A program made the translations under genes and the position numbers. From Desulfatirhabdium butyrativorans DSM 18734 (GTDB lineage: Bacteria > Desulfobacterota > Desulfobacteria > Desulfobacterales > Desulfatirhabdiaceae): a stretch of DNA of 64,000 nt. Below, in pieces: positions 25,745 through 45,441 of this stretch. The notes beneath the pieces are model-generated. The model was not told the origin of the DNA. It saw only the letters and a program-made list of their open reading frames with translations, and did not search any database. The stretch is taken from positions 62,001-126,000 of the forward strand of contig NZ_AUCU01000016.1 in assembly GCF_000429925.1 (NCBI RefSeq), written 5' to 3'. Every line of letters begins with the position of its first letter. The stretch's first letter is position 1.

Positions 25745-25780
25745 CATGATTTTTTCAACCGTTCACTCAGAGGAGATACG

Positions 25781-28057: not shown

Positions 28058-28123
28058 CGTCTGTCTCCTTCTTCATGATGGGGGTTTGGGGCCGGTCACT
28101 TCAAGAAAAGACTCCGGTACTGC

Positions 28124-28382
28124 CGGAGGGCAGGCAATTTTGCGATACAGCGTGAAATCCTGTGGAACACAGGACAGCCGCCCGATATCGTAAGGGCCGG
28201 GCGGATCCGGGTCCATCAATAAAAGCCGAATCCAATGAATGAGGGGTTTATATCGTGCTTTTTCCTGGAGAACGCCCGGCCCGACGATCTCCGGCGGCTT
28301 CAGACAAGTTCCCGCTGCATCGCAAAACAGCCTGCCCTCCAGCTCAGGTTGTACCCAAAACGGGTTTTCCGTTCAGGCACTA
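28124..28382. repeat. TAGTGCCTGAACGG element, copy E (about 259 bp, left end lost)
   Basis: Same orientation and core as copy B (GATATCGTAAGGGC, AATGAATGAGGGGTTTATAT), ending in TTTTCCGTTCAGGCACTA. The left terminal repeat is missing; homology begins near CCGGAGGGCAGGCAATTTTG. It separates the DUF3237 gene from the TRAP binding-protein gene, so these two are probably not one transcript. The rest of the gap (28058-28123) shows only the ribosome site of the binding-protein gene. Confidence 0.85.
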
Positions 28383-28408
28383 TGTAAAACGAGATTCCCA
28401 ATGCCATG

Positions 28409-28894: not shown

Positions 28895-28925
28895 GCAATT
28901 CCCTCCTGTTGGGCTGAATGCTTCC

Positions 28926-30121: not shown

Positions 30122-31612
30122 ATGAATCTCGCGTTTATTTTGAAACAGTCCGCATCGTGGTTCGGCAATAGGCCGGCATTGATCGAGAAGGATACCCACA
30201 TCACCTATCAGGAATTGGACGCCCGAAGTGGCCGCATCGCATCTGCTCTCCTGAACCTTGGAATTCATCCGGGCGATACGGTTGGCATCTGCGCTCCCAA
30301 TTCGATCGAATGGGTCGTTTCCTACTTTGGCATCATGAAGGCGGGTGCGGTTGCAGCCACTTTTCCAAATGCCGCAAGGGGAACCGAACTGAAGCAACTG
30401 ATACACGAGGTCAAACCCCGGATGATCTTCGCTTCGCCGGAGCATTTGAGCGACCTCCGGGATATCCAAACCTCCGGCATTTTGGAGCGCATCATCTGTC
30501 CCGACGGGGATCTGGATGTTCAGCGTTTAATGGCATCCGGTTCCGATGCCTTTGATATCGTTGACCGGGATCGGGACGATGCCTGCGCGATTCTCTTCAC
30601 GGGAGGAACCACCGGCATCCCGAAAGGAGCCGTCCTCAGCCACGAAAACATCCTGACTTCCATTCAGAACGTGGTATTCAACGAACGATCTCGGGAAACC
30701 GACTGCGCCCTCTGTTTTCTTCCCTTAAACCATGTCTTCGGTCAGATCCATATCCTCGATGCCACCCTGCTCAGCGGAGGATGCGTCGAGCTCATGCCCG
30801 CCTTCGACATGGAACGCATCCTTGAGATGCTTTCGATGGGTCGCATCACCAAACTCTTTGCCGTACCCACCGTGTATGCCAGGTTGCTCTCCCTGCCGTC
30901 CCTGAAAGAAACCCTCGGAGCGGTGCAGTACTGCTTTTCCGCGGCTGCCAGCATGGCGGCCGAGATGGTTCGACAATGGAAGGATCTTACGGGACTTGCC
31001 ATTCATGAGGCTTACGGCATGACGGAAAGCGCCTCCATGGTCACCTATAACCATTATCGGCGCCATGTGATCGGATCCGTCGGAACGCCCGTGGGTACCG
31101 TCGAAGTGCAGATTCGGGATATGGATGGTCGCAGGATTGGAATGGGACAGACGGGGGAAATTTGTATCCGGGGCCGCAACATCATGCGGGGATATCTCAA
31201 CCGGCCGGAGGAGACACAGGCCGTGTTCTGGGGAGACTGGTTTCGAAGCGGCGATCTGGGCATGCTGGATGAAAATGGCTATCTGTATATTGTCGATCGA
31301 CTGAAGGATATGATCATCACAGGCGGCGAAAACGTTTATCCCCGAGAAGTGGAAGATCGGCTGTACGGCCGGCCGGAAATCCAGGAGTGCGCGGTTATCG
31401 GAGTGCCGGATCCGGAATGGGGAGAGCGGGTAACGGCCTTCATCGTCGGCAGGCCGGGGTTTACAGTCGATCCACAGGCCCTCAAGGCCAGCCTGAAATC
31501 CTGCCTGGCACCGTTCAAGGTACCCAAGGAATTCCGCATCGTCGACGCGCTTCCCAAAAGCCCATCCGGCAAAATCCTAAAAAGGTCCCTTCGTGAGGGA
31601 CAACATCGATGA
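30122..31612 (+). CDS. acyl-CoA ligase (ANL superfamily)
   Basis: 496 residues. The phosphate-binding loop is LFTGGTTGIPKGA, and the A5-A8 motifs are AYGMTESASMV, WFRSGDLGMLDENGYLYIVDR and KDMIITGGENVYPREVE. The C-terminal catalytic lysine is in LPKSPSGKILKR. The reaction is carboxylate + ATP + CoA to acyl-CoA + AMP + PPi. It heads a + strand run with TRAP permeases and an acyl-CoA dehydrogenase, so it probably activates the imported acid. Substrate specificity is not predictable from the sequence. Confidence 0.92.
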   Translation: MNLAFILKQSASWFGNRPALIEKDTHITYQELDARSGRIASALLNLGIHPGDTVGICAPNSIEWVVSYFGIMKAGAVAATFPNAARGTELKQLIHEVKPRMIFASPEHLSDLRDIQTSGILERIICPDGDLDVQRLMASGSDAFDIVDRDRDDACAILFTGGTTGIPKGAVLSHENILTSIQNVVFNERSRETDCALCFLPLNHVFGQIHILDATLLSGGCVELMPAFDMERILEMLSMGRITKLFAVPTVYARLLSLPSLKETLGAVQYCFSAAASMAAEMVRQWKDLTGLAIHEAYGMTESASMVTYNHYRRHVIGSVGTPVGTVEVQIRDMDGRRIGMGQTGEICIRGRNIMRGYLNRPEETQAVFWGDWFRSGDLGMLDENGYLYIVDRLKDMIITGGENVYPREVEDRLYGRPEIQECAVIGVPDPEWGERVTAFIVGRPGFTVDPQALKASLKSCLAPFKVPKEFRIVDALPKSPSGKILKRSLREGQHR

Positions 31613-31724
31613 ACGATCGGAATACGATTCCTGAAGGTCCACGCGATCCTGCCGTTTGCCGATCGAGTGCATCGGAAACGACCCATCGCCAGGGCAACCG
31701 TAAAGGATTCGAAAAGGAAGGATC

Positions 31725-32255
31725 ATGATCGCTTTTCTGGAAATCCAAACCAACAGGATTGCCGTAATCCTGTACTGGATTGCAGGTGCCGCCATCGTCG
31801 CGATGATGCTGCTCACCTGCGCCGACGTGCTGCTCCGCTATGCCGTCACACTGCACCAGTCCATCGGATGGTCATTGCTTTCCGGTTTGAAACCGATACC
31901 GGGGACCTTCGAGCTTGCGAGCTTCCTGGGCGCGGTCGCAGCCGCCTGCGCCATGGCCCATACGGCCATCAAAAAAGGTCATGTTGCCGTCAGTTTCGCC
32001 GTCGAGCTGCTCCCTGAAAGGTACCGGAGGATCATGGAGGGCTTGACCCACACCTTCTCGCTGCTTCTGTTCGTTCTTCTGTCCTGGCAGGCGTTTGTCT
32101 ATGGAGGCAATCTCCGGGAGTCGGGAGAAGTGTCCCCCACGCTGCAGCTTCCTTTCTACATTTTCGTATATGGAATCGGCGTTGCGTCGATAGCGGTCTG
32201 TCTCGTCCTATCGCTTGACCTGGTAAAAATCTTTCGGAGGATAGACAACACATGA
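31725..32255 (+). CDS. TRAP transporter small permease (DctQ)
   Basis: 176 residues with four membrane helices, at about 12-34, 60-80, 100-120 and 143-165. The stretch FLGAVAAACAMAHTAIKKGH and VAVSFAVELLP is the typical DctQ loop motif (GHV.V). It forms the membrane complex with DctM and overlaps its gene by 4 bp. A GGAAGG lies before the ATG. Together with the binding protein at 27032-28057 it probably makes one importer. Confidence 0.88.
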   Translation: MIAFLEIQTNRIAVILYWIAGAAIVAMMLLTCADVLLRYAVTLHQSIGWSLLSGLKPIPGTFELASFLGAVAAACAMAHTAIKKGHVAVSFAVELLPERYRRIMEGLTHTFSLLLFVLLSWQAFVYGGNLRESGEVSPTLQLPFYIFVYGIGVASIAVCLVLSLDLVKIFRRIDNT

Positions 32256-33553
32256 GTCTGATGACTATCGGCGTGCTGGGGATTGTCGTTCTGATCGCGC
32301 TGTTGTTTTCGAATATGCCGGTTGGATTCGTCATGGGATTTATCGGATTTCTCGGGTTTTGGTACGTGCGGGGGCTCGAAGCCGGTCTGAGCCTGCTGAT
32401 CCGGGATTTCTTCGAAGTGTTTTCCTCCTACGGCCTTACCGTAATTCCCCTGTTCGTCTTCATGGGGCAGATCGCCTTCTATTCGGGTATCAGCAGAAGG
32501 CTCTACGATGCCGCATACATCCTCATCGGCAACCGTCCCGGCGGACTTGCCATCGCGACGATCGGCGCCTGCGCAGGATTTTCCGCCATCTGCGGGTCCA
32601 CCAACGCTACAGCGGCCACCATGGCCACGGTGACCATCCCGGAAATGAGACGCTACCACTATGATCTGGGGCTCGCCAGCGGAACGGTCGCGGCCGCGGG
32701 AAGTCTCGGCATCCTGATTCCGCCCAGCGTCATTTTTATCGTGTACGGCATTCTGACCGAGCAGTCCATCGGCAAACTGTTTGCGGCGGGAATTCTTCCC
32801 GGAATTCTTCTCGCTTCGCTCTTTGTCCTGACGGTCTATATCCGGGTACGCAGGCATCCGCATCTGGCTCCTTGTGGTCCGAGCAGCTCATCCGTCGAAA
32901 AATGGCAGGCCTTTACCGGTTTCATCGAAACCTTTTTCATTTTCGGTCTTGTCATGGGAGGCATTTTCTTCGGGCTGTTCACACCCACCGAAGCAGCCGG
33001 CATTGGCGCCTTTCTCACCCTGCTTGTTGCCTTGATCCGCAGGAATCTGACATGGCAGGGGTTTGTCCGATCCCTTGCTGACACGACCCGTATCAGTTGC
33101 ATGGTCATGGTGATTGTCGCCGGTGCCATCGTATTCGGGCATTTCATGGCCGTAACCCGTCTTCCATACGATCTGGCCAATTGGGTGGCCGGCCTTCCCC
33201 TGCCTGCTTTCGTCATCGTCTGCCTGATCATCCTCGTCTACATCATGGGCGGCTGTTTCATGGACTCCCTCGCCATGATCATCCTGACGGTGCCCATTTT
33301 CTACCCCATCATAACCAAACTCGGATTTGATCCGATATGGTTCGGTGTCGTCATCGTGCTGATTACGGAAATGGGGGTCATTACCCCGCCGGTAGGTGTC
33401 AACGTATATGTCGTATACGGTGTGGCAAAGGACATTCCCCTGGAAACAATTTTCCGGGGGGTTATGCCCATGCTCTTGGCTCTGATTGTGTGCAACCTCC
33501 TTATTCTCTTCTTTCCGCAAATTGCCTTGTTTCTTCCCGGACTGATGCGATAG
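32252..33553 (+). CDS. TRAP transporter large permease (DctM)
   Basis: 433 residues, about twelve hydrophobic helices, of the DctM family. Motifs seen are FGFxSxxGLTVIPLFVFMG (here YGLTVIPLFVFMGQIA), FSAICGSTNATAATMATV, LGILIPPSVIFIVYG and MGVITPPVGVNVYVVYG. It couples sodium-driven transport of an organic acid delivered by the binding protein. It is coupled to dctQ by an ATGA overlap. Confidence 0.92.
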   Translation: MSLMTIGVLGIVVLIALLFSNMPVGFVMGFIGFLGFWYVRGLEAGLSLLIRDFFEVFSSYGLTVIPLFVFMGQIAFYSGISRRLYDAAYILIGNRPGGLAIATIGACAGFSAICGSTNATAATMATVTIPEMRRYHYDLGLASGTVAAAGSLGILIPPSVIFIVYGILTEQSIGKLFAAGILPGILLASLFVLTVYIRVRRHPHLAPCGPSSSSVEKWQAFTGFIETFFIFGLVMGGIFFGLFTPTEAAGIGAFLTLLVALIRRNLTWQGFVRSLADTTRISCMVMVIVAGAIVFGHFMAVTRLPYDLANWVAGLPLPAFVIVCLIILVYIMGGCFMDSLAMIILTVPIFYPIITKLGFDPIWFGVVIVLITEMGVITPPVGVNVYVVYGVAKDIPLETIFRGVMPMLLALIVCNLLILFFPQIALFLPGLMR

Positions 33554-33678
33554 CCCGCGCATATTGGGCCTGCTTGCAGGGAATGATGGCCTCGCGGTGT
33601 GGCCATCATCCTTCTGGACAGCCGTTCTTGGGGGGAAGATCATTGTTACGAACTCAATTCGATTGAAAGGAAATACCC

Positions 33679-35481
33679 GTGGCCCAATGGATTGCCGATC
33701 GCAGGGATGTGGCATTCGTCCTGCAGGAACAGTTTCACGCAGATGAACTTGCCAAACACGACCGATTCTCCGAGTTCAATCGCCGCACCATCGACATGAT
33801 CGTCACGGAAGCGCGAAATCTTGCCGTACAGGAAATTCTGCCGACACGCCAGATCGGAGATCGCATTGGATGCCGCTACGCGAACGGAACGGTTCAAACC
33901 CCGGATGAATTCAAGCGGGTGTGGCGGCTTCTCATGGAGGGCGGATGGTTTGCGCCGTCAGCGGATCCGAAATGTGGCGGACAGGGAATGCCGAAGCTTG
34001 TCGGCCTGGCGGCTCAGGAATACCTCTTCGGCGCGAACCTTGCGCTCATGATGGTGGCGGGCCTCAATCACGGGGCTGGAAGATTGATCGAAACCTTCGG
34101 AACAGAATCCCAAAAGCGCCGGTATCTGGAGAATGTATACAGCGGAAAATGGGCAGGAACGATGGTGCTTACGGAACCGGAAGCCGGATCGGACCTGAGC
34201 GGGCTCACAACCTCAGCCATTCAACATCCGGATGGCACCTATTCGCTTTCGGGCGCCAAGATTTTCATCAGCGGTGGGGAACAGGATTTGACCGAAAACA
34301 TCGTCTATCCCGTTCTGGCAAGGATTCAGGGGGCACCGGAAGGAAGCCGCGGGATATCGCTGTTTCTCGTCTCAAAATTCATCGTCCGTGAAGATGGAAC
34401 CCCCGGTGAGCGAAACGACATTGTCTGTACGGGAATCGAGGAGAAAATGGGCCTTCACGGAAGCCCTACCTGCTCCATGGCCCTCGGAAGCTGCGGCAAA
34501 TGCATCGGCGAGCTGTTGGGGGAACCCAATCGAGGACTTGCGGCAATGTTTCTGATGATGAACGAGGCGCGACTCATGGTGGCTTGCCAGGGACTGGTGA
34601 GTGCCTCGACATCGTATCTCTATGCCTTGTCCTATGCCAGGACACGGGTTCAGGGCAAATTCGGCTGCAACGGCAAAAGCGTTCCCATCATCCGCCATCC
34701 CGATGTTCGCAGGATGCTCTTGATCATGAAAGCCAATGTGGAAGGGATACGCAGCCTGCTCTATTATCTGGCCTGGTGTGATGATCGGCAGAAGGTTGCA
34801 TCCGATCGCTCCGAATCAAGACGGTATCGGGAGCGTATCGATCTTCTGATTCCAGTGGCGAAAAGCTATGCCACGGATCGCGCAATCGATGTATGCAACC
34901 TGGGCATCCAGGTGTACGGAGGATATGGGTATACATCGGAATACCCGGTGGAGCAGTTGTTGCGGGATGTCCGTGTCACATCAATCTATGAAGGCACAAA
35001 CGGGATTCAGGCCATCGATTTTTTGGGGAGAAAGCTTCAACTGGACGATGGACGCCTGTTTCTTGAATGGATGGATGACGTTCGGCAAACCATTGCCTGG
35101 AGCAAACGCTTCCCCTCGATCCGCCATTTGGCCGATCGGCTTGCCGATGCAGTCAATGAGCTGGATCAAACGGCACAAGAGCTGCGGAAAGCCGCTGCCA
35201 GCACACAAGCCTTATCGGCCTATTCTTTCGCAAGCCCCCTGTTGGATGCTGCCGGCGATGTCGCCGTTGGCTGGATGCTGCTTTGGCGGGCCGCCATCGC
35301 CTCCGAAAACCTGCAGAGAAAGACCGCCAAAACCGATTTCACATTCCATCAGGGTCAAATCCTGAACGCCGAATTTTTCCTTCGTACGCAACTTCCCGTC
35401 ACCATCGGAAAGCTGAGGGCAATCCAGGACGGTACGACGGCCGTGACCGACATGACGGAAACATCCTTCGGTGGGATGTGA
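33679..35481 (+). CDS. acyl-CoA dehydrogenase
   Basis: 600 residues, the long type with an extra C-terminal helical domain. It begins with GTG (33679) after GAAAGG. FAD/substrate motifs are MVLTEPEAGSDLSG, SGAKIFISGGEQDLTEN and the C-terminal ICNLGIQVYGGYGYTSEYPV-like segment (here CNLGIQVYGGYGYTSE). The catalytic glutamate is expected in IYEGTNGIQAIDFLGRK. It oxidises an acyl-CoA to the 2-enoyl-CoA and passes electrons to ETF, whose genes are not in the window. It probably follows the ligase and transporter in one pathway. Confidence 0.92.
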   Translation: MAQWIADRRDVAFVLQEQFHADELAKHDRFSEFNRRTIDMIVTEARNLAVQEILPTRQIGDRIGCRYANGTVQTPDEFKRVWRLLMEGGWFAPSADPKCGGQGMPKLVGLAAQEYLFGANLALMMVAGLNHGAGRLIETFGTESQKRRYLENVYSGKWAGTMVLTEPEAGSDLSGLTTSAIQHPDGTYSLSGAKIFISGGEQDLTENIVYPVLARIQGAPEGSRGISLFLVSKFIVREDGTPGERNDIVCTGIEEKMGLHGSPTCSMALGSCGKCIGELLGEPNRGLAAMFLMMNEARLMVACQGLVSASTSYLYALSYARTRVQGKFGCNGKSVPIIRHPDVRRMLLIMKANVEGIRSLLYYLAWCDDRQKVASDRSESRRYRERIDLLIPVAKSYATDRAIDVCNLGIQVYGGYGYTSEYPVEQLLRDVRVTSIYEGTNGIQAIDFLGRKLQLDDGRLFLEWMDDVRQTIAWSKRFPSIRHLADRLADAVNELDQTAQELRKAAASTQALSAYSFASPLLDAAGDVAVGWMLLWRAAIASENLQRKTAKTDFTFHQGQILNAEFFLRTQLPVTIGKLRAIQDGTTAVTDMTETSFGGM

Positions 35482-35796: not shown

Positions 35797-37875
35797 TTAT
35801 AGCACCATGCGGGCATCTACAGCCACAGCCTTGTCTGCAAACGCCATCACGGGGTTCAAATCCATTTCCTGAATCTGCGGAAAATCGGTAACGAGCTGGG
35901 AGACCCGAAGCAGGATATCGACGATTCCCGGGCGATCGACGCCAGCCTGACCCCGCACGCCCTTCAGCAGGGCCGCCGCCTTGAGCGAATCGATCATTTC
36001 CCCGGCTTCGATCTCGGTGATGGGGGCAATCCGGAAGGAAACATCCTTCAGAATTTCGACATAGATGCCACCCAGACCGAAGAGCAGGATATGCCCCAGG
36101 CCAGGCTCGGCCTTCGCACCCACGATGACTTCCCGTCCTCCGCCTTCGAATTTCTGAATGAAGAAGCGCAAATCCGTTGCCCCGATCCGCTTGACCATCG
36201 TTTCGGCAGCTTCCCGGACAGACTTTCCATCCTTCAGATTCACGGCGACACCGCCCATGTCGCTCTTGTGAACGACAGACGGCGAATCGGCCTTCAGAAC
36301 CACGGGATATCCGATGGCGTTTGCCGCTGCTTCGGCATCCGCCACTGTATCGGCGATCTTCCAGGCGGCGCAAGGAATGCGGTAGGCTTCGAGGATCCCG
36401 TACACATCGGCTGCAGACAGAAGCGTCTTCCCATCCGATGCAGCCTTCTCCAGGATTGCGGCAACCGCGCCGGAATCGACATCCGTAAAGGTCTTTGGCT
36501 TGCCGATGTCCTTCGACCGAAGAGCTGCATAACGGCTGAGAGCGGCCAATGCCCGGGCTGCCGTGCCCGGAAAGGTGTAACAGGGGACGCCGCCTGTCTT
36601 CAGAATCTCGACGACATCCTTCCATTGCTTCGGATCGGTCATGAGATTGCAGACGATGGGCTTTTTGTGCTGGCGGTTCACCTCTGTAATCTGCTGGGCC
36701 ACCGCCTCGTTGTTGACGAAGAAGGGCGTGACGAAATTGATGTACAGGCAGTCGATGCCGTCTTCGGCCATCATCACGTCCATTGCCGCCCGGAAATGGC
36801 CGGCATCTGCCGTTGCCAGCACATCCACCGGATTTTCGAACGCGGATTCGGGAAACAATTTTCCTTTCAGCGTCTGGATGGAGGCTTCCGAAAGGGTCGG
36901 AATCTTCATTCCCTCATCGACGAGCACATCGGTGGCGATGACGGCCGGGCCTCCGGTGTTCGTGATGATCCCCACCCGATTCCCCGAAGGGATGGGCTGG
37001 GAAGCGAAGGCAGCCGCAGCCTGGCACAGTTCGCCTTCGTCCCGGAAGGTGAGAATGCCCAGTTTCTGGAGAATGAGCTCGATGGCGATGTCCGTTTTGG
37101 CCAGCCCACCGGTGTGGGACGAGGAGGCCTTGGCGCCCTCGGCGGTCCTTCCGGCCTTCATGGCCAGAACGATCTTTTGGGATGCCACCCGCTGCATGAC
37201 CTCGAGAAAGGCCTTGGGATCCTTCAGGCTTTCGAGATACAGCACGATGACGCGGGTTCCGGAGTCGTTTCCCAGGTAGTCCAGAATTTCGGTGATGGAA
37301 ACATCGCTGGCGTTGCCGTTGGATGCATAAATGCGCGTGCCGATGCCCATCTGGGAAAAGCCCTGGTGGATCAGCTCCCCGACGCCGCCGCTCTGGGCAA
37401 CGATCGAGATGAACCCCGGATCGGGTTTGGTGAAGGTGAAGTTGCAGTAGGCCCGGACTTCCGGATCGGTATTGATGATACCCTGGCAATTGGGCCCGAG
37501 AATCCGGATGCCGTATTTGGCGGCCCGTTCCAGAAAGTCTTTCTGCAGGGCGGCCCCTTCCGGTCCGACTTCGGTGAATCCGGCCGAATTGATAATGATG
37601 GCCTTGATCCCTTTCTTGCCGCAATCTTCTACGGCTGCAGGCACGAATTTGCTGGCGATCACCATGTGGGCCAGATCGATCGGCCCGGGAACGTCGAAAA
37701 TGCTCGGATAGGCTTTGACGCCTCGAATGTCGGACGCTTTCGGGTTGATGGGATAGACGGGTCCCTTGAAACCGAAATCGATCAAATTTTTGATGATGCG
37801 GTTTCCGATCGACAACTCTTTGGTCGAGGCCCCGATGATGGCCACACTTTTGGGTCTGAACAAGGCATCCAGCAT
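35797..37875 (-). CDS. ADP-forming acyl-CoA synthetase (acetate--CoA ligase family)
   Basis: 692 residues from the ATG at 37875, in the order CoA-binding domain (SVAIIGASTKELSIGNRI), succinyl-CoA ligase-like flavodoxin domain with the phosphohistidine segment SSSHTGGLAKTD, and a C-terminal ATP-grasp domain (IGYPVVLKADSPSVVHKSD). It interconverts acyl-CoA + ADP + Pi with acid + ATP + CoA; it can conserve energy from a pathway product or activate the substrate. It begins 1 bp after the stop of the dehydratase gene and is surely co-transcribed with it. Confidence 0.92.
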   Translation of the reverse strand: MLDALFRPKSVAIIGASTKELSIGNRIIKNLIDFGFKGPVYPINPKASDIRGVKAYPSIFDVPGPIDLAHMVIASKFVPAAVEDCGKKGIKAIIINSAGFTEVGPEGAALQKDFLERAAKYGIRILGPNCQGIINTDPEVRAYCNFTFTKPDPGFISIVAQSGGVGELIHQGFSQMGIGTRIYASNGNASDVSITEILDYLGNDSGTRVIVLYLESLKDPKAFLEVMQRVASQKIVLAMKAGRTAEGAKASSSHTGGLAKTDIAIELILQKLGILTFRDEGELCQAAAAFASQPIPSGNRVGIITNTGGPAVIATDVLVDEGMKIPTLSEASIQTLKGKLFPESAFENPVDVLATADAGHFRAAMDVMMAEDGIDCLYINFVTPFFVNNEAVAQQITEVNRQHKKPIVCNLMTDPKQWKDVVEILKTGGVPCYTFPGTAARALAALSRYAALRSKDIGKPKTFTDVDSGAVAAILEKAASDGKTLLSAADVYGILEAYRIPCAAWKIADTVADAEAAANAIGYPVVLKADSPSVVHKSDMGGVAVNLKDGKSVREAAETMVKRIGATDLRFFIQKFEGGGREVIVGAKAEPGLGHILLFGLGGIYVEILKDVSFRIAPITEIEAGEMIDSLKAAALLKGVRGQAGVDRPGIVDILLRVSQLVTDFPQIQEMDLNPVMAFADKAVAVDARMVL

Positions 37876-37876
37876 G

Positions 37877-39121
37877 TCACTTTCTCTCCTCGAGTTGTTC
37901 AATGAAGGCTTCGACATTGGTCTTGGTCTGCTCATCGGAAATCAGGCGCAGATCGTTCAGGTCGCCATTGATGATGAGGCTGGGAACCCCGGTCTCTTTT
38001 TCGAGCCGCTGGGGCATGCCATAGCGGCAATTGGAGTTGTTCGGGCAGGTTTTCGCATCGTGATAGATGATGCCGTCAACCTTGAAAAAGGCGATCATGT
38101 CCTTGATGTATTTTTCCTTGGCCTCATCGGATCGGACGATGAACAGCTTCGTGTAGGCGCGGGCCATGCTCTCGAAGGGTTCGGCCGGATCGAAATCGGA
38201 GAAAATCCAGGAATTGCAGTACGTCGAAGCCAGGACGTTGGTTTGGTGGCTGCTGAAAAGCATGGAATGGTCCCGCAATCTTCCCCAAACCGGCATGCCT
38301 TCCCAGTAGAGGCGGAATTTTTCGCCCGGAACGGCAGCGACCTTGTCCTGAATCCGTTTTTCGAGCTCGGCAAGCAGCATTTTGTAGTAATCGACCGCCC
38401 GCTGGGTGCCGCGCAGCACAACGGCCGGCCCCATGTGGATGGTGCCATCAAAGAAGGTGATGGGCGAAGGAACGGCTGCGGCCGTATCGAGCACTTTCTT
38501 CCACAGTTCGGAGCATTCCCGGGAGAGGGCCAGCACATGTTTCATCTCATCCATGTCGAACCTTTTCCCCGAAATTTCCTCGAGCGGACGGATGAGGGCT
38601 TCCATTTGCCTGGCGATCGATGCCGTATGCTCGCCACGCACATCCCCGACACCGCGGTGGGTGTGAATGCCGACAACCGGAACCTTGAATTCCCGGCCAT
38701 ACCACATGAACCAGTCCTGAACGTCGCGGCACTGATTCGTGTTGTAGACCAGTACGTCGGGTTTCGGCACCGAGTCGATGCCGGGGTAGGCTTTCGAAAG
38801 GGGGGTGACACCTTTGAGATAGGCGCCGACATCCGCCGTCAGATACGAGCAGATATCTGGTGAATAGCCAATGGCGTTCGCTTCCGGAATCATGTCGGTC
38901 GCCATCCGGGTGGCTCCGAGCATGGCGCCGTGATTCTCCGGAAAATGGACCAGAAACCCCAAGGCCCGAAGAATTTCCGCCGGCCCTACACTCGTGCACC
39001 AGGCGATCTTCTGCTTTTTGGTCGTTGCGGCTTCGTTCAGTTCGTAAAAGTAGTCGCTCATGTACTGCTTCATCATGCCTGCGGCCTGAATCTTGGGCAA
39101 GGCCAGTTTTTCTTCTGCCAT
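37877..39121 (-). CDS. 2-hydroxyacyl-CoA dehydratase/benzoyl-CoA reductase-type subunit (HgdB/BcrC family)
   Basis: 414 residues. Cysteines characteristic of the [4Fe-4S]-binding HgdB fold lie in AWCTSVGPAEIL (C42), SPDICSYLTADVG (C91) and NTNQCRDVQDW (C131), with a further pair in AKTCPNNSNCRYG near the end. The family removes water from 2-hydroxyacyl-CoA by ketyl-radical chemistry, or reduces benzoyl-CoA, after one-electron activation by an ATPase. The activase follows upstream at 39404-40216. Usually two subunits of this family are encoded side by side; only one is present here, so it may be homodimeric or have a partner elsewhere. Confidence 0.88.
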   Translation of the reverse strand: MAEEKLALPKIQAAGMMKQYMSDYFYELNEAATTKKQKIAWCTSVGPAEILRALGFLVHFPENHGAMLGATRMATDMIPEANAIGYSPDICSYLTADVGAYLKGVTPLSKAYPGIDSVPKPDVLVYNTNQCRDVQDWFMWYGREFKVPVVGIHTHRGVGDVRGEHTASIARQMEALIRPLEEISGKRFDMDEMKHVLALSRECSELWKKVLDTAAAVPSPITFFDGTIHMGPAVVLRGTQRAVDYYKMLLAELEKRIQDKVAAVPGEKFRLYWEGMPVWGRLRDHSMLFSSHQTNVLASTYCNSWIFSDFDPAEPFESMARAYTKLFIVRSDEAKEKYIKDMIAFFKVDGIIYHDAKTCPNNSNCRYGMPQRLEKETGVPSLIINGDLNDLRLISDEQTKTNVEAFIEQLEERK

Positions 39122-39153
39122 GGTACCTCCGGTTGAATGGGATTGATAATAAG

Positions 39154-39235
39154 ATGGGCGATAGGCAATAGGCTATGGGCGATAGGCTATGGGCTATGGG
39201 CTATGGGTTATGGGTGATGGGTGATGGGTGGATGG
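39154..39235. repeat. GGCNATR heptamer array, arm 1
   Basis: A run of 7-bp units such as GGCGATA, GGCAATA, GGCTATG, GGTTATG and GGTGATG, about eleven units. It is the inverted complement of the array at 39311-39418, with about 75 bp of unique sequence between. It lies in the leader of the dehydratase gene. Confidence 0.85.
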
Positions 39236-39310
39236 GAAGTAGCCCAGGGGATTGGACCTTCAGGCTGGAAACCGTGCCCGGACATCTGGCAAAACACAAC
39301 GCCACCCAGA

Positions 39311-39418
39311 ACCCATAGCCTATCGCCCATAGCCCATAGCCCATAACCTATTGCCTATCGCCTATCGCCCATAGCCTATTGCCTATTGCCTATTGCCTAT
39401 TGCCTATCGCCTATCACC
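39311..39418. repeat. heptamer array, arm 2 (inverted)
   Basis: About fifteen 7-bp units such as CCCATAG, CCTATTG and CCTATCG, inverse of arm 1. The end of the activase reading frame (its last codons and TAG stop, 39404-39406) runs into this array. Confidence 0.85.
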
Positions 39419-40216
39419 TTCCATTGCATACAACGCTGCGCCCAGCGCACCCGTCAGCTGCGGCAAGGGCGGCACCCAGATAGGTCTTCCGATCAGCTCC
39501 TGGGCCATTTCCACCAGATACGGATTGTGGGCCACCACGCCGCCGGTCATGACCACGTTTTCGGTGAGGGAATCCATCTCGAGCACCCGTTTGATGACCG
39601 ACAGAAACAATCCCTTGACGATGTCGGGCACCTTCTTTCCCTGACGGATCTTTTCCAGCACTTCGGTTGCCGAAAAGACCGTGCAGAAACTGCCCAATTC
39701 CACCATCTGGGTGCTCTGGCGGGCCAGCCCGTCCATGGACTCTATCGGAATATCGAGTCTGGGAGCCATCTCTTCCAGAAACGCCCCCGTACCGGCTGCG
39801 CATTTGCGGTTCATCTTGAAGCTCTGCCGCCTGCCCTCACCATCCACCTTGATGACCTTGTTGTCCTGCCCGCCAATGTCGATGATCGTGATGGGATGGG
39901 GGAAACAATGGAAACACCCTTTGGCGTGACAGCCGATTTCCGTCTTGGTATCGTCTGCCCGTTGCACGTTTTTTCTGCCGTAGCCGGTCGAGATGAGCCT
40001 CCGGATGGCCTGTTGCGTGACACCAGCCATCGCAAGGGCCATTTCCAAACATTGATCGCTCGACTCGGTGAAATTGGTACCGGATTTGACGACGGCATGG
40101 CCGACGGGCCGCCTTTCACCATCAATCACCATGACCTTGGTTCGGGAGGCGCCAACATCGACCCCAGCCCATATCGATGGATCACCATTGCCCATACGTT
40201 CGCTCTTTCCTGTCAT
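39404..40216 (-). CDS. BadF/BcrA/HgdC-type activase (ATPase)
   Basis: 270 residues of the ASKHA-fold activator family. GVDVGASRTKVMVID is the first phosphate loop, IIDIGGQDNKVIKV the second. Cysteines in KCAAGTGAFLE (C139) and GSFCTVFSATE (C178) hold the [4Fe-4S] cluster at the dimer interface, and MTGGVVAHNPYLV closes the nucleotide site. It injects one electron into the dehydratase at the cost of ATP. Its start overlaps the stop of the reductase gene upstream (ATGA). Its last residues, after EGD, are encoded by the heptamer array. Confidence 0.92.
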   Translation of the reverse strand: MTGKSERMGNGDPSIWAGVDVGASRTKVMVIDGERRPVGHAVVKSGTNFTESSDQCLEMALAMAGVTQQAIRRLISTGYGRKNVQRADDTKTEIGCHAKGCFHCFPHPITIIDIGGQDNKVIKVDGEGRRQSFKMNRKCAAGTGAFLEEMAPRLDIPIESMDGLARQSTQMVELGSFCTVFSATEVLEKIRQGKKVPDIVKGLFLSVIKRVLEMDSLTENVVMTGGVVAHNPYLVEMAQELIGRPIWVPPLPQLTGALGAALYAMEGDRR

Positions 40217-41157
40217 TTCGGCTCGATGGCTTTCACCAGTCCCCGGATCATCACATTGAAGGGGGTTTCGATGCCTGCCTGCTGACCGTATTCGATAAAT
40301 TTGCCGTTCATGAAATCGATTTCGGTGCGACGCTTGGCCTCGATGTCCATGAGCATGGAGGGTTTATGATCCCCGGCATGCCGCATGTACGCAATGGCGT
40401 TCGGATAGAAATCCCAGCCAAGATCGATTTCATTGGCCCGGGCGATCTTGACGCATTCCTTGACCAGGGAATCGACGATGTTGAAGACGATCGGATCGTT
40501 CATGGCCTGGGCCATGGTGTAGCCCGTTACGGCGCAAACCGGATTCATGCAGGCATTCAAAACGGCCTTTCGCCAGACCATGGATACGATCTTGTCCGTG
40601 GCTTCCGTCAGAAGCCCGGCCTGTGTAAAAGCCGCTGCAATAGCCTGGGCGGCGGGTTTGGATTCGGGATCGAGCTCCTGCAGGTAGTGGGGCGCATGAT
40701 GGAAAGGCATTTTGACATGGCCGGGCTTGACCAACCCGCATCCGTAATTGACGACGGCGCGCATTACCGGAAGGGTGCCGAGGGTTTTGGCAATTTCCCG
40801 TTCGGTATCGATTCCGTTCTGCCAGCTCACCACATATTGCCCTTCTTGCAGGAACCCCTCGATGGCAGATGAGAGCAGCGGCAGCACGTTGGCCTTGACC
40901 GTGATAATGATGACATCGGGCCGGATATCCGCCAGATCGTCGATGGATCGACAGACCCGCTTCACTTTCTGCTGCAGATTTTCGGCCCCTTCGATCACGA
41001 TTCCGGGATCAAGCGCCGGATCGATCAGCGCCTGGACAACATCGCACAGTGTCACCTCGTAGCCGCCTCTGGCCAGAAAGGCCGCGACGATACAGCCAAC
41101 GGGCCCTGCCCCCACCACGGCGAATTTTTTCGGTGTAAATGCAGATGGATCCGACAT
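40213..41157 (-). CDS. ketopantoate reductase-like 2-oxoacid reductase (ApbA/PanE family)
   Basis: 314 residues. The NAD(P)-binding glycine loop VVGAGPVGCIVAAFLARGG comes first, then IITVKANVLPLLSSAIEGFL and SWQNGID, and a C-terminal helical domain with the conserved lysine in VWRKAVLNACMNPVCAVTG. Family members reduce 2-oxo acids to D-2-hydroxy acids; ketopantoate is only one substrate. Next to a 2-hydroxyacyl-CoA dehydratase, reduction of a 2-oxo acid feeding that enzyme, or the reverse oxidation, is a better guess than pantothenate synthesis. Confidence 0.85.
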   Translation of the reverse strand: MSDPSAFTPKKFAVVGAGPVGCIVAAFLARGGYEVTLCDVVQALIDPALDPGIVIEGAENLQQKVKRVCRSIDDLADIRPDVIIITVKANVLPLLSSAIEGFLQEGQYVVSWQNGIDTEREIAKTLGTLPVMRAVVNYGCGLVKPGHVKMPFHHAPHYLQELDPESKPAAQAIAAAFTQAGLLTEATDKIVSMVWRKAVLNACMNPVCAVTGYTMAQAMNDPIVFNIVDSLVKECVKIARANEIDLGWDFYPNAIAYMRHAGDHKPSMLMDIEAKRRTEIDFMNGKFIEYGQQAGIETPFNVMIRGLVKAIEPK

Positions 41158-41169
41158 GGTGTTCTCCTT

Positions 41170-41613
41170 TCAGCTTTCAGTTTCCAGAATGCCAAACGAT
41201 TTGGCATCCAGAATGTGGACGCCATGTTTCTGCAGCACGTCGATCGCCCTGTCGTTGTCGCTGAACCGGAAAATCATGACGGCGTTGTTGGCTGCCATGC
41301 CGATGAATGCATACATGTACATGACGTTGACGTTGGCTTCGGTGAGCGGCTTGAGGATTTCGGAAAGCCTGCCGGGCTTGTCCTCGATTTGGACGGCAAC
41401 CACATCATCCACTCGGGCCGGCATATGCCGTTCCATCAGAATGCGGCGGGTGGTGGCAATGTCCGAAACGAGGAGCCGCAGCGATCCGAAATCTCCGCTG
41501 TCTACCAGGTTCAATGCCCTCAGGTTGATGCCCGCCTGGCCCAGTGCATGGGTCACCTCGTACAGACGACCGGGTGCATTTTCGATGGATACCGAAATCT
41601 GTTTCAGTTTCAT
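41170..41613 (-). CDS. tandem ACT domain protein
   Basis: 147 residues made of two ACT domains: KQISVSIENAPGRLYEVTHA (1-70) and VAVQIEDKPGRLSEILKPLT (70-140), each with the beta-alpha-beta PGRL turn that binds amino acids. This two-domain type is often encoded with phenylacetate-CoA ligases or indolepyruvate oxidoreductases, so it may sense an amino acid or its 2-oxo acid. The ATG at 41613 has AGGAG 8 bases upstream. It is the first gene of the reductase-activase-dehydratase transcript, 12 bp before the reductase. Confidence 0.88.
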   Translation of the reverse strand: MKLKQISVSIENAPGRLYEVTHALGQAGINLRALNLVDSGDFGSLRLLVSDIATTRRILMERHMPARVDDVVAVQIEDKPGRLSEILKPLTEANVNVMYMYAFIGMAANNAVMIFRFSDNDRAIDVLQKHGVHILDAKSFGILETES

Positions 41614-41806
41614 GGGCCTGTCTCCTTTCTTGCGCCTTTCCGGGGAGATCTTCATGTGAAGCTTTGCCCCGTCGATTCGTTCAGCATAATGAACTGTTCT
41701 TGTGGATACATTTTAATTATAATGTAACCATTTGTCCTATTTCTAACGGTTGAAGAGAGATGTGTCAAGAAAAAAAATGGGATTCAGTTTGGAATGGATT
41801 GAAACG
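41614..41806 (-). promoter_or_regulatory. leader and probable promoter region of the ACT-dehydratase operon
   Basis: Read leftward it contains TATAAT about 100 bp before the ACT gene start (in CATTATAATTAAAATG); a clear -35 box is not visible at the right spacing. The region is AT-rich compared with its surroundings. No gene. Confidence 0.35.
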
Positions 41807-41989: not shown

Positions 41990-43312
41990 TCACGTCCCGC
42001 CCCCAAGCGAAACCCCACTGATATCGTATCCAAGTATCTTCGGGAGCCACAGGACAGCATCCGGCCAATAGGTCAACAGGAACAGGATGGCGATCTGAAT
42101 CGCCAGAAAAGGCATCACCGCCTTGGTGACATAGACAATATCCCGTTTGGCCACAGCCCCCGAAATATACAGGCTGACCCCGACAGGCGGTGTGCAGTAG
42201 CCGATGGCCAAATTAACAGTCATGATCAGGCCGAAATGGATGGGGTTGATGTTGAAGGCCATCAGGAGCGGCAAACACACGGGACCGATGATCAATGTAG
42301 CCGAAATGATGTCCATCAGCATCCCGACGGCCAGCAGGATGATATTGATCGCAAAGAGAAACACCATCGGGGAATGAATGTTTCCGGTAACCGCTTCGGT
42401 GATCTTGGCCGGAATGGATTCGATGGTCAGATACCGGCCGAAACAGGTGGCGCCCGCCACGATGATCAGCAACGTCGCAGAGGTGACGGCCGAGCTCACC
42501 ACCACTTGTTTCATCTGCTGGAATTTCATGGATTTGTGGATGAAGATTTCCACGATGAAGGCATAAACGCAGGCAATGACGGCCGCCTCGTTAGCCGTAT
42601 ACGTGCCGGTGTAAATGCCGGCAAAAATGACAACCGGGAGCATCAGCGCCCAGAAACATTCCTTGAAGGTTTTCCATAGCGTGGAAAAACTGGGAACGGG
42701 CATGCGGGCAACAGATGGGTTCTTGACGAAAACAAAATAGGTGTAAACGCACATGGCAAGCGTGATCAGGATCCCGGGAAGAAAACCGGTCAGGAAGAGC
42801 GCCTCGAGGGAACAGTTGCTGATCATGCTGAAGAGGATCATGCCGATACTGGGCGGTATGATGACCCCCAGGTTTCCGGCAGTTGTCATGACCCCGATGC
42901 TGTAATTTTCGGGATACCCTTGTTGCATGAGCGCCGGAATCATGAATCCGCCCAGAGCGACCACCGTGGCGACGGTCGATCCCGAAATGGCGCCGAACAT
43001 AGCGCAGGCGATGATTCCAGCCATGCCAAGCCCGCCCGGGAGCCAACTCACCAGGATGTTGGCGAATTTGATCAGTTTTTCGACGATGGTCCCGGCAGTC
43101 ATGATATTCCCGCAAAGAATGAAGAACAGCACGACGACCAGGGAAAAATTGTCAAGCCCCCGGAAGACGGTCTGCACCAGAAGCATGATCGGAAGGCTGG
43201 TGAACATCAGCATACAAATCACCGCCGTAAAAAACAGACTCATGAACACCGGCACATAGGCGACCATCATCCCCAGAAGAAGCAACAGGGGCGCAATATA
43301 GGTCCATTCCAT
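41990..43312 (-). CDS. TRAP transporter large permease (DctM)
   Basis: 440 residues, about twelve membrane helices. Motifs include GAISGSTVATVVALGGFMIP, LGVIIPPSIGMILFSMI and the C-terminal YCTPPVGVSLYISGAVAKRD. It belongs to the second TRAP system of the window and lies with its small permease and binding protein in the usual P-Q-M order on the minus strand. A rho-independent terminator follows the gene. Confidence 0.92.
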   Translation of the reverse strand: MEWTYIAPLLLLLGMMVAYVPVFMSLFFTAVICMLMFTSLPIMLLVQTVFRGLDNFSLVVVLFFILCGNIMTAGTIVEKLIKFANILVSWLPGGLGMAGIIACAMFGAISGSTVATVVALGGFMIPALMQQGYPENYSIGVMTTAGNLGVIIPPSIGMILFSMISNCSLEALFLTGFLPGILITLAMCVYTYFVFVKNPSVARMPVPSFSTLWKTFKECFWALMLPVVIFAGIYTGTYTANEAAVIACVYAFIVEIFIHKSMKFQQMKQVVVSSAVTSATLLIIVAGATCFGRYLTIESIPAKITEAVTGNIHSPMVFLFAINIILLAVGMLMDIISATLIIGPVCLPLLMAFNINPIHFGLIMTVNLAIGYCTPPVGVSLYISGAVAKRDIVYVTKAVMPFLAIQIAILFLLTYWPDAVLWLPKILGYDISGVSLGGGT

Positions 43313-43483
43313 AACGATTGGGTCTCCTTGACAAGGTTCTCAGCTTGCGAACCGATGAAAATGCTCATGGCGGTGACGCCGCCCCAGGGAATAAGCATTC
43401 CAATGGAAACGATCCTCCTACAAAATCAAAGCGTTCCCATCCATCCCTTTTCCCTTTACCCTATCCTCTTTTCCCGTTTCCCT

Positions 43484-43975
43484 CTACGATTGCTTCATGG
43501 CCACCACGTCCTGATAAATAACATGAATGGTTCGAAGCAACATCATGATGCCCATCATCGGCAGCCACACATAGAGAATGACGAGCGGAATCTGAAGAAT
43601 GATCGTCTTCTGGTTGGTCATCGCCTGTTGCGCAGCAATCTGCCACCCGTAGATGATCATAATCAGGGCAAAAACGATGGTCACCAGATGACTGAAGACC
43701 ATCAAGGGATATTTCGTCTTTGGCACCAATTGGAGCAGCACATCCACCTTGATCATCGAACGATTCTTGACGGCCGAACTGCAGCCGATGAGGGTGGTGT
43801 AAATGATGACCTCCCGGACCAGCTCTTCGGACCAGGCCAGGGAGTAGTTGATGGTATAGCGCAGGATGACATTGACGAAGAGCGCGATCAACACCACCAT
43901 GACCGTGATGAACAGGGTCCAATCCTCAAAGAAAGTCAGGACGGTGTCAATGATATCGAGTGTTTTTTTGAACAT
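43484..43975 (-). CDS. TRAP transporter small permease (DctQ)
   Basis: 163 residues with four membrane helices. The segment EELVREVIIYTTLIGCSSAV and KNRSMIKVDVLLQLVP is the DctQ signature loop. It partners with the large permease 171 bp downstream and the binding protein upstream. These wider gaps (171 and 383 bp) differ from the overlap seen in the first TRAP system. Confidence 0.88.
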   Translation of the reverse strand: MFKKTLDIIDTVLTFFEDWTLFITVMVVLIALFVNVILRYTINYSLAWSEELVREVIIYTTLIGCSSAVKNRSMIKVDVLLQLVPKTKYPLMVFSHLVTIVFALIMIIYGWQIAAQQAMTNQKTIILQIPLVILYVWLPMMGIMMLLRTIHVIYQDVVAMKQS

Positions 43976-44358
43976 CAGGGAACCTTCATCGCTAAAGAGT
44001 TGCCATGGTCAAACGAAATTTCTTTCGTTGATGAGTTGTCTCGTTTTGGCGCCTGAATTGGCAATGTCTGCTCAAAAAATCCAGATAACCGAGCCAATTG
44101 CAAAACCCCTATTTTTCGTCACCCCGGCAAAATCCTGCCACTGGCAGGAAGGGTCCATAACGATTTGGAATAAATGGATTCCGGCTTCCGCCGGAATGAC
44201 GCACGGGGGTTTCACCCATCGGCGATGGGGATGAAAGCAAACTTTCTGGTGGAAAATTCTGGAATGATCCACCCCAAAACGAAGCAACGCTTCATGGGTG
44301 ATATCATCTCTTCTATGAGTACTCAGGGGCGCGCCGTGCAGTGCGCCCCTGCCCCATC
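43976..44358. other. 383-bp gap with a common genome repeat
   Basis: Between the binding-protein and small-permease genes. No gene is seen. It contains GGATTCCGGCTTCCGCCGGAA with flanking ATGACG (about 44169-44201), a type of dispersed repeat common in proteobacteria; a related decayed piece lies near 54470-54513. TCCTGCCACTGGCAGGA (near 44137) is a small hairpin. Confidence 0.5.
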
Positions 44359-45441
44359 TCAAGGCTTGTAGCCCAAGAGATCCTGCACTTCCTTCAGATA
44401 ATTCACGGGCCGGTAGGTATCGCTCGGGTAGAGTTTGTTGATTTCCTCGGCATACTGCTTATGGACGACATCCCCTTCTTTTCGCAATGTATTCATGTCG
44501 GCTTCTGACAACTTGAAAAATTCGACCCCCGAAGCCTTGGCTTTGGCGATCTCATCGGCCTCCTGCTTTACAGTCTCTGCACGGATCACCTTGCAGACAT
44601 CATGAACGGTATCCTTGAAGGTCTTCTGCAGATCGGCAGGCAGGCTGTTGAACCATGCCTTGTTGAAAATCCAGATGAACAGCCCCTGGGCATAGTTGAC
44701 CTGGGTGAAATATTTGGCGTCTTCGAATTTCTTGGTGATGTTGCACACCATCGGGGTATGATCGAGACCGGTGATCACCCCCTGTTTCAGCGCGATCGGC
44801 ACATCCGGCCAGGGCATGGCTACCGGGTTGAATCCCCATGCCTTGTACAGGAGCTGGTTGACCGCAGCCTCAGCCGTCCGGAACTTGATTTTCTTGGCAT
44901 CTTCGATCGTCTTGACAGGCGTTATCGTCGCCCAGCCATAATTGCCGTATCCGGTGATATCCATGCCGATGATTCCCTGATGGTCCATCGCCATGAGGAA
45001 ATGATCCCACAGTTTTCCACTGTTGACGAATTTATCGAGTTTGTCGAACGAATCCACCAGGAAGGGCAGGTTCACCACACCAAAGCGTGGACCAAGATTG
45101 GTCGAGGCCACGGAACTGACCCCCATTCCCTGAATGGCGCCCATCTGCAATTGGTTCAGGACTTCCACCTCGCCGCCCAGCATGGAAAATGGCTTGTAGT
45201 CAATGTAAATCTGGCCGTTGCTCCGCTTCCACAATTCATCCCGGATGGCAAACCCGGCATAGACCCCCCGGATAACCGGATGGGAAACATTGGAAACGAC
45301 CGCCTTGTATTTGGCAGTCGACGGATCGAATGCCGGTTTCCAGGCATCCAGCGATGGCCCTGCAGCTCCTGCGAATCCAGAAGTCAGAAACAGTGCCATA
45401 CCCACCACGACAGCAATCCAACCGATCCTCTTTCCTGTCAT
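44359..45441 (-). CDS. TRAP transporter substrate-binding protein (DctP family)
   Basis: 360 residues with a signal peptide (about 1-26, ending FAGAA). The DctP pattern is seen in VVSNVSHPVIRGVYAGFAIR, GIIGMDITGYGNYGWATITP and KTIEDAKKIKFRTAEA, where the arginine binds the carboxylate. AAAGGAG precedes the ATG. It is the binding component of the second TRAP importer; the ligand is unknown. It differs clearly from the binding protein at 27032 and is not a recent duplicate. Confidence 0.9.
   Translation of the reverse strand: MTGKRIGWIAVVVGMALFLTSGFAGAAGPSLDAWKPAFDPSTAKYKAVVSNVSHPVIRGVYAGFAIRDELWKRSNGQIYIDYKPFSMLGGEVEVLNQLQMGAIQGMGVSSVASTNLGPRFGVVNLPFLVDSFDKLDKFVNSGKLWDHFLMAMDHQGIIGMDITGYGNYGWATITPVKTIEDAKKIKFRTAEAAVNQLLYKAWGFNPVAMPWPDVPIALKQGVITGLDHTPMVCNITKKFEDAKYFTQVNYAQGLFIWIFNKAWFNSLPADLQKTFKDTVHDVCKVIRAETVKQEADEIAKAKASGVEFFKLSEADMNTLRKEGDVVHKQYAEEINKLYPSDTYRPVNYLKEVQDLLGYKP

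Follow-up and report, generated by a model that had tools for sequence, protein, structure and literature searches.

The window analyzed here is a stretch of 64,000 nucleotides from Desulfatirhabdium butyrativorans DSM 18734 (contig NZ_AUCU01000016.1, positions 62,001 to 126,000). On its minus strand it carries a gene for a solitary alpha-type 2-hydroxyacyl-CoA dehydratase (DEH; 37877–39121; HGD-D at 230 bits, Pfam cut-off 28.4), which probably performs a missing step in the anaerobic breakdown of phenylalanine-related aromatic acids. We consider it fairly likely that the operon around DEH provides uptake and the front half of a route from an aryl-2-oxo acid, most likely phenylpyruvate, to an aroyl-CoA. 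The gene content, the catalytic residues, the solitary state of DEH, the location of DEH in the phenylacetate/phenylpyruvate cluster of Desulfococcus multivorans, and the linkage and co-occurrence with BamA (the ring-opening hydrolase) are observed in the sequence.

Among the open reading frames (ORFs) of the window, a five-gene set on the minus strand is found where an earlier note on this DNA had located it (35797–41655). Apart from DEH, the set comprises a single-chain ADP-forming acyl-CoA ligase (35797–37935; Pfam CoA_binding_2, Succ_CoA_lig, and ATP-grasp_5), an activase of the BcrAD/BadFG ATPase type (39404–40216; BcrAD_BadFG), a PanE/ApbA-type NAD(P)H-dependent 2-oxoacid reductase (40213–41157; ApbA and ApbA_C), and an ACT-domain pair protein (41170–41655, likely start 41613; ACT_8 “ACT domain pair,” PF19571). 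The end given in the earlier note, 41613, falls on an ATG inside the ACT gene, and the alignment of one homologue begins there too. Upstream on the same strand (41990–45441) lies a tripartite ATP-independent periplasmic (TRAP) transporter, made up of the large membrane subunit DctM (41990–43312), the small membrane subunit DctQ (43484–43975), and the substrate-binding protein DctP (44359–45441). DctQ and DctM are named by homology to a cluster in Desulfococcus multivorans alone (see below).

The proposed route

The TRAP transporter would take up the acid, the PanE-like protein would reduce the 2-oxo acid phenylpyruvate to phenyllactate, its (R)-2-hydroxy counterpart, and the ADP-forming ligase would make the CoA ester, phenyllactyl-CoA (in some relatives perhaps a task of an AMP-forming ligase or a CoA-transferase). 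The activase would then place one low-potential electron into DEH at the expense of ATP, and DEH, acting as a homo-oligomer of alpha-type subunits, would remove the 2-hydroxyl via a ketyl radical to give cinnamoyl-CoA. A hydratase, a 3-hydroxyacyl-CoA dehydrogenase, and a thiolase, encoded on other contigs of the genome, would convert cinnamoyl-CoA to benzoyl-CoA and acetyl-CoA, with benzoyl-CoA passing on to ring reduction and BamA. NADH from the 3-hydroxyacyl-CoA dehydrogenase would balance the NAD(P)H spent by PanE; conversion of phenylpyruvate to benzoyl-CoA and acetyl-CoA would be net redox-neutral in NAD(P)H, at the cost of one CoA activation. The identity of the substrate, the oligomeric state (homodimer), the handling of electrons, and flux are what we infer.

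In the mechanism described for the family in passages of PMC11574389, the activase spends ATP to hand over an electron, with which the alpha cluster turns the thioester into a ketyl radical. Hydroxide leaves, a proton is then lost, and the electron returns, with the beta subunit relaying and storing it. In DEH, either a second copy of the subunit or the one cluster itself would have to take over this task.

Type of dehydratase

Scores, tree, and fold all assign DEH to the HadB/BcrB (alpha) type, and the label “HgdB/BcrC-type” that it had been given before is not borne out. Against NCBIfam, DEH scores 224 bits for HadB, 156 for BcrB, 75 for BzdO, and 56 for the double-cubane cluster protein (DCCP), every one under the curated cut-off (750, 487, 449, and, for DCCP NF040772, 350 bits, respectively). 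The AlphaFold model of DEH (mean predicted local distance difference test 82.6) finds HadB as its best match (template modeling score 0.88–0.92), with Z values of 44.6 for HadB (393 residues), 41.0 for BzdO, 38.3 for MbdO, 32.1 for DCCP, and 30.5 for HadC. The phylogeny that the earlier note called for, run with 42 rows, separates a beta/DCCP half (HadC, BzdN, MbdN, DCCP) from an alpha half (HadB, MbdO) with support of 100/99; the DEH clade (19 rows, 100/100) falls inside the alpha half, and the HgdB/BcrC placement does not hold. It should be noted that the tree warns of long branches meeting, that the branching order within each half is unsure, and that the alpha/beta split is imperfect because both subunits of one pair in another genome (G004, 850–854 kb) group with the alpha half. 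DCCP, the known one-subunit member, falls in the other half, so DEH represents a one-subunit type of its own, based on the catalytic subunit.

The cysteines of DEH that align with cluster ligands (C91, C131, and C359) are invariant in 70 of 70 rows (68 of the 70 ORFs picked from related loci, plus D. multivorans and the window; rows dropped for length or identity are left out). The same holds for S44 and E62, the equivalents of HadB S37 and E55, the active-site serine and glutamate. The aryl-CoA reductase subunit MbdO has E62 in common with DEH and lacks a serine at the position of S44 (Ile in one alignment, Ala in another). Three extra cysteines (C42, C203, and C302) are likewise invariant in all 70 rows and are specific to the clade. 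C302 aligns with BzdN C263 and DCCP C309, whereas C42 misses BzdN C36 by one column, which puts both at or beside double-cubane ligand positions; no DEH cysteine aligns with BzdN C293. In BzdN, residues C36, C73, C100, C263, C293, and C327 coordinate the [8Fe-9S] cluster (PMC11971306, in part).

For the helper proteins, alignment rows were chosen by identity and length and include the window. The activase scores 203 bits as an acyl-CoA dehydratase activase (NCBIfam cut-off 125), and all 59 of its rows have C139 and C178, the candidate ligands of its cluster. The PanE-like reductase (apbA_panE 193 bits, cut-off 141) has K197, N201, N205, and E279 in all 30 rows, and the ligase, which is under every NCBIfam equivalog cut-off listed, has the motif SHTG with H274 in 45 of 45. 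Presumably, C139 and C178 bind the cluster, K197 and E279 are catalytic, and H274 is the phospho-histidine. Judged by its family, the PanE-like protein would reduce 2-oxoacids; the ACT-pair protein is probably an amino-acid or aryl-acid sensor.

The Desulfococcus multivorans cluster

A counterpart of the operon occurs in D. multivorans (G168, taken as strain DSM 2059), with DEH at 2,791,060–2,792,298 (contig C1). The gene order is HBDH, dehydrogenase-hydratase fusion, thiolase, CheY, two kinases, DctM, DctQ, DctP, two AMP ligases, DEH, activase, PanE, ACT, IorB, and IorA, which fits the tags of a published phenylacetate/phenylpyruvate cluster. Passages of PMC5109826 describe two adjoining clusters at 2.77 Mbp with proteins specifically formed on phenylacetate and phenylpyruvate: the TRAP transporter DctM4Q4P4, FadD4 (C24830), Hbd5, a hydratase (C24740), and a thiolase (C24750). 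The second cluster also holds C24850-70 (“conversion of phenyllactate to phenylpyruvate”), CheY (C24760), and the histidine kinases C24770/80. According to the same passages, phenyllactate supports growth, formation of IorA3B3 is specific to phenylpyruvate, with a lower level on phenylacetate, and genes for 3-phenylpropanoate and cinnamate are placed in the same hotspot. The organism is described there as having neither PadB nor PadEFGHI of the known phenylacetate pathway, and the final conversion to benzoyl-CoA is called unclear. By ORF counting, DEH is either Dmul_C24840 or C24850.

In D. butyrativorans the counterparts of the D. multivorans module are split over three contigs. Those in the window are DctP (71% identical), DctM (65%), DctQ (50%), DEH (65%), activase (67%), PanE (60%), and ACT (62%). 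Contig C5 carries, near BamA, the dehydrogenase-hydratase fusion (66%), CheY (61%), the kinases (45% and 37%), IorA (41%), and IorB (40%), and contig C6 carries a FadD4-like AMP ligase (67%) and the thiolase (69%). The IorA beside DEH in D. multivorans, a possible but not certain IorA3, is only 41% identical to the D. butyrativorans IorA near BamA.

Neighbors of DEH across related loci

A scan of contigs returned 308 DEH relatives, of which the best 80 (69–81% identical) were kept for all counts over loci. Their hosts are Desulfobacterota (including Geobacter), Thermoplasmatota, Lokiarchaeota, Ignavibacteria, Aminicenantes, Planctomycetota, and others, and many are metagenome-assembled genomes (MAGs). 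Neighbors were counted anywhere in the available flanks (E ≤ 1e-20, at least half of the query covered), with counts for the 36 loci that have at least 8 kb on both sides in brackets. The activase is found at 73 loci (34), the ADP-forming ligase at 55 (28), PanE at 52 (27, distant PanE included), an AMP-forming ligase of the L051 type at 32 (17), IorA at 29 (21), IorB at 28 (18), PaaK at 28 (16), thiolase at 27 (19), 3-hydroxyacyl-CoA dehydrogenase at 19 (14), ACT at 19 (10), enoyl-CoA hydratase at 13 (10), the acetyl-CoA hydrolase/transferase type at 11 (8), AOR at 10 (6), acyl-CoA dehydrogenase at 5 (3), BamA at 5 (4), and TRAP at 3 (1). At least one of the IorAB, PaaK, beta-oxidation, or BamA genes is near DEH in 26 of the 36 well-flanked loci. 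One IorA (L015) exceeds the curated cut-off for indolepyruvate:ferredoxin oxidoreductase, and one PaaK (L013) has phenylacetate-CoA ligase as its best match, at a score below its cut-off. In G007 the order is AMP ligase, ADP-forming ligase, DEH, activase, PanE, PaaK, IorB, IorA, with BamA ~10 kb past DEH. As a side observation, the ACT-PanE pair occurs twice in tandem downstream of the DEH unit in L078, L079, L088, and L091. The TRAP transporter was rejected as a universal operon part (3 of 80 loci and the D. multivorans genome only).

The gene linkage fits the series 2-oxo acid, 2-hydroxy acid, 2-hydroxyacyl-CoA, enoyl-CoA that the earlier note had put forward, but not the partners named with it. 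The neighboring CoA-transferase has close homologues in L031 only, and the acyl-CoA dehydrogenase is not conserved (5 loci vs. 27, 19, and 13 for thiolase, 3-hydroxyacyl-CoA dehydrogenase, and enoyl-CoA hydratase).

The same counts bear on a Stickland-like reductive branch, as in Clostridium sporogenes, in which an acyl-CoA dehydrogenase would reduce arylacrylyl-CoA to arylpropionyl-CoA as an electron sink. In the window, such a gene follows just downstream of the operon on the opposite strand. Among NCBIfam models it matches acryloyl-CoA reductase best (165 of 640 bits, far under the cut-off), and IorA and IorB could form the oxidative branch of such a scheme. A homologue (44% identical over the 209 residues compared) is found in the D. 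multivorans hotspot, ~24 kb from DEH and beside thiolase and hydratase genes. We nevertheless regard this branch as unlikely, given the scarcity of acyl-CoA dehydrogenase next to thiolase and 3-hydroxyacyl-CoA dehydrogenase, and given that many DEH carriers have BamA and come from lineages known for sulfate or iron reduction. Because the homologue lies near DEH in D. multivorans, the dehydrogenase of the window may feed arylpropionates into the same cinnamoyl-CoA pool as the proposed route.

It is also improbable, in our judgment, that the substrate is aliphatic (e.g., 2-hydroxyisocaproyl-CoA from leucine) and the aromatic linkage incidental. The closest solved relative of DEH is indeed 2-hydroxyisocaproyl-CoA dehydratase, the PanE and ligase families accept many acids, and 10 of the 36 well-flanked loci are without any Ior, PaaK, beta-oxidation, or BamA gene; the association with BamA, the linkage to PaaK and IorAB, and the phenylacetate/phenylpyruvate-specific cluster of D. 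multivorans speak for an aromatic substrate instead.

Association with BamA

BamA/Oah (TIGR03200) exceeds its cut-off in eight of eight checked DEH genomes and in none of 14 controls (11 of which have weaker matches). The eight were hand-picked: D. butyrativorans, Desulfonema magnum, Geobacter argillaceus, Desulforhabdus, a Thermoplasmatales MAG, an Ignavibacterium MAG, and two other MAGs. Among 297 Desulfobacterota genomes, 47 carry DEH (E ≤ 1e-120) and 69 carry BamA at the same threshold (65 of them exceed its curated cut-off); 37 have both genes, 10 have DEH without BamA, 32 have BamA without DEH, and 218 have neither. BamA is thus found in 37 of 47 genomes with DEH versus 32 of 250 without (odds ratio 25, p = 3e-19, by a Fisher test that treats genomes as independent). 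A genome with both occurs in 19 of the 22 families that have DEH, and the two genes are 8–13 kb apart in G005, G007, G168, G232, G239, and G274. Aromatic acids were among the substrates that the earlier note suggested testing, and the genomic context points there; the oxidative aromatic route itself was no part of its proposal.

Given this association, we considered whether DEH might itself be a solitary aryl-CoA reductase, that is, a one-subunit class I benzoyl-CoA reductase, since the family includes benzoyl-CoA reductase subunits and E62 is common to MbdO. This is very doubtful and was rejected. Some of the DEH genomes that were checked clearly carry other ring-reduction candidates, namely a class I-like set of two activases and two subunits near BamA in G004 and, in G002 and G028, large AOR-family genes followed by small FeS genes, taken for BamB and BamC. 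In addition, DEH keeps the HadB serine, scores higher for HadB than for BcrB (224 vs. 156 bits), and as a ring reductase would leave the linkage to PanE unexplained.

Absence of a second subunit

That there is only one dehydratase subunit here, as the earlier note had it, is real. The assembly (4.48 Mb, 73 contigs, 97.3% complete), searched with Pfam HGD-D, contains four HGD-D genes on four contigs, none of them paired. Pairs are detectable by this search, because adjacent HGD-D pairs were recovered with it in G004, G005, G006, and G007. A second subunit encoded elsewhere, the finding that the earlier note held would speak against its reading, was sought in this genome, in further genomes, and at the 80 related loci, with a negative result. 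The complete D. magnum genome (G001) has, besides DEH, a single HGD-D gene, which is DCCP-like (454–456 bits to DCCP) and has its own adjoining activase. Ten further genomes were searched; DEH is the sole HGD-D protein in G232 (100% complete) and G112 (99% complete), and D. multivorans has two other HGD-D genes (399 and 361 bits), which by their scores are putatively DCCP-like. No other HGD-D gene lies within 40 kb of DEH in these ten genomes, on the contig available (that of G280 breaks off at DEH). In G004, an HGD-D pair with two activases of its own lies ~20 kb from DEH.

At the 80 loci, profiles of both family halves run on ORFs of at least 80 amino acids found a second family ORF in one (L044, a fragment of 129 amino acids). 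Because locus flanks are uneven, the absence of a second subunit rests mainly on the whole-genome searches. Clustering of ORFs of at least 110 amino acids revealed no conserved unknown gene beside DEH except apparent antisense ORFs (judged by position only). We think it very unlikely that DEH has a heterodimer partner which escaped recognition through divergence or small size, or which is a DCCP-like or other beta-half protein encoded elsewhere: characterized 2-hydroxyacyl-CoA dehydratases are heterodimers (PMC11574389, in part), and D. butyrativorans and D. magnum have DCCP-like proteins and D. multivorans its two further HGD-D genes, but G232 and G112 lack any other HGD-D protein, the D. magnum DCCP-like gene adjoins an activase of its own, and the ORF clustering yielded no candidate.

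Some related arrangements were seen in passing. In Ignavibacterium (L044 6345–9025; L110 3006–5686), an alpha-type subunit remnant and two extra activase-like genes precede an activase-DEH-ligase unit; the L044 remnant, of 129 amino acids, matches the C-terminal part of the alpha-type profile. A second solitary alpha-type dehydratase with an activase occurs on contig C24 of G000 (27320–29265; L104). It is 34–35% identical to DEH, shares the three cluster cysteines and the S/E pair, and is followed by a response-regulator-like gene (judged by eye). Contig C32 of G000 (~22468–26829; L103 1969–6330) encodes a protein of 1453 amino acids with two activase-like domains.

Weighing the proposed route

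Several points count against the route from phenylpyruvate. No Ior, hydratase, or thiolase gene adjoins the operon in the window, DEH of the D. multivorans cluster is not accompanied by an ADP-forming ligase, and the passages of PMC5109826 neither report DEH as detected nor link it to cinnamoyl-CoA. The 10 well-flanked loci without aromatic or beta-oxidation neighbors belong here, as do loci that show activase and DEH only (L128, L134, and L136). These three, from Desulfobacterota without BamA, have no PanE, ADP-forming ligase, or ACT in the available stretch (L128 ends 0.2 kb past DEH), and their DEH is possibly used differently. As to BamA, related genomes in the Fisher test are not independent, 10 of the 47 DEH genomes are without BamA at the threshold, and in many genomes the two genes are distant or on separate contigs: they are 28–53 kb apart in G004, G130, G230, and G028, for example, the distance grows to 0.8 Mb in G289, 1.6 Mb in G006, and, in D. 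magnum, 2.6 Mb, and in D. butyrativorans they are on separate contigs. Finally, DEH could act on some other 2-hydroxyacyl-CoA, aryl or branched.

A bolder extension, which we offer tentatively and think less likely to be right than wrong, is a CO2-fixing, Pad-independent phenylacetate route in sulfate and iron reducers and archaea. PaaK would activate phenylacetate to phenylacetyl-CoA, and IorAB would reductively carboxylate this to phenylpyruvate. After reduction and CoA activation, a DEH homodimer would dehydrate the product to cinnamoyl-CoA, storing the electron itself, perhaps via a modified cluster that uses C42 and C302, and beta-oxidation would yield benzoyl-CoA and acetyl-CoA. The lower level of IorA3B3 on phenylacetate in D. 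multivorans (PMC5109826, in part) speaks against the carboxylating step.

Other features of the locus

The gap of ~280 bp between the activase and DEH genes carries two heptamer arrays (GGGCTAT/GCCTATT type; 39153–39231 and 39302–39419) that are inverted to each other. Their arms are 75 nt long and 84% complementary (predicted RNA fold z-score −9.7), and no close copy of the pattern is present elsewhere in the window. By appearance the arrays are an inserted repeat element, and they may split the activase and DEH transcripts.

Convergent with the operon, on the plus strand (30122–35481), are genes for an AMP-forming ligase, a second TRAP transporter, and the acyl-CoA dehydrogenase discussed above, which has a PF12806 C-terminal domain. 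Because the homologue of this dehydrogenase sits in the D. multivorans hotspot, the set is perhaps an operon for arylpropionate, or else for another acid.

Comparison with known systems

We did not find the pathway from phenylpyruvate via cinnamoyl-CoA to benzoyl-CoA with a DEH described in the open-access literature (subscription journals were outside the search), nor, in the open-access text consulted, a one-subunit dehydratase beyond the DCCP homodimer (PMC11971306, in part). If the proposed route is correct, it would explain the formation of hydratase, dehydrogenase, and thiolase on phenylacetate and phenylpyruvate, and it would connect, in both bacteria and archaea, aromatic amino acid breakdown with the benzoyl-CoA pathway. 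DEH would then be a 2-hydroxyacyl-CoA dehydratase without the beta subunit, to which relay and storage of the electron are ascribed (PMC11574389, in part), and thereby a test of how far a single type of subunit can carry the mechanism.

Among the closest known systems are HadBC and FldBC (activases HadI and FldI), which act on 2-hydroxyisocaproyl-CoA and phenyllactyl-CoA, respectively, and have HadC and FldC as beta subunits. DEH is like them in the catalytic alpha subunit, the three cysteine positions, the serine and glutamate, the dedicated activase, and a reductase able to make the 2-hydroxy acid. It differs in that its operon has a CoA ligase in place of the CoA-transferase (FldA/HadA), in that no beta subunit was found, in neighbors that favor beta-oxidation over Stickland reduction, and in its three clade-specific invariant cysteines. 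DCCP (6eno), with its activase DCCP-R, resembles DEH as one gene plus an activase, and the DCCP homodimer is the solved one-subunit precedent in the family; however, DCCP belongs to the beta half, lacks the FPEN segment, and binds [8Fe-9S], whereas DEH is in the alpha half. The class I benzoyl-CoA reductases (BcrABCD, BzdNOPQ, and MbdNOPQ) have the fold family, activases, and an aromatic gene neighborhood in common with DEH, but they have two catalytic and two activase subunits, and MbdO has no counterpart of the HadB serine that DEH retains. For Geobacter metallireducens, the relevant passages of PMC1924859 report no catalytic subunit of the dehydratase family.

The D. multivorans module shares with the D. 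butyrativorans genes the TRAP transporter, ACT, PanE, activase, DEH, dehydrogenase-hydratase fusion, thiolase, and two-component system homologues. The published reading runs via phenylglyoxylate and leaves the conversion of this compound unclear (PMC5109826, in part), whereas here phenylpyruvate would go to cinnamoyl-CoA, and DEH is a concrete candidate for the conversion to benzoyl-CoA. Another comparison is the BzS1 route, which is meant for benzene; in passages of PMC13416013 (2026), phenylpyruvate, phenyllactyl-CoA, cinnamoyl-CoA, and benzoyl-CoA are postulated with a “yet unassigned dehydratase.” The authors name three candidates. One is a cluster whose products were detected and which combines a CoA-transferase-like pair with a dehydratase-domain protein and an acyl-CoA synthetase; the other two, both undetected, are a singular gene 30% identical to FldB and a 2-hydroxyglutaryl-CoA dehydratase-like cluster. 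DEH offers a family to test for that dehydratase.

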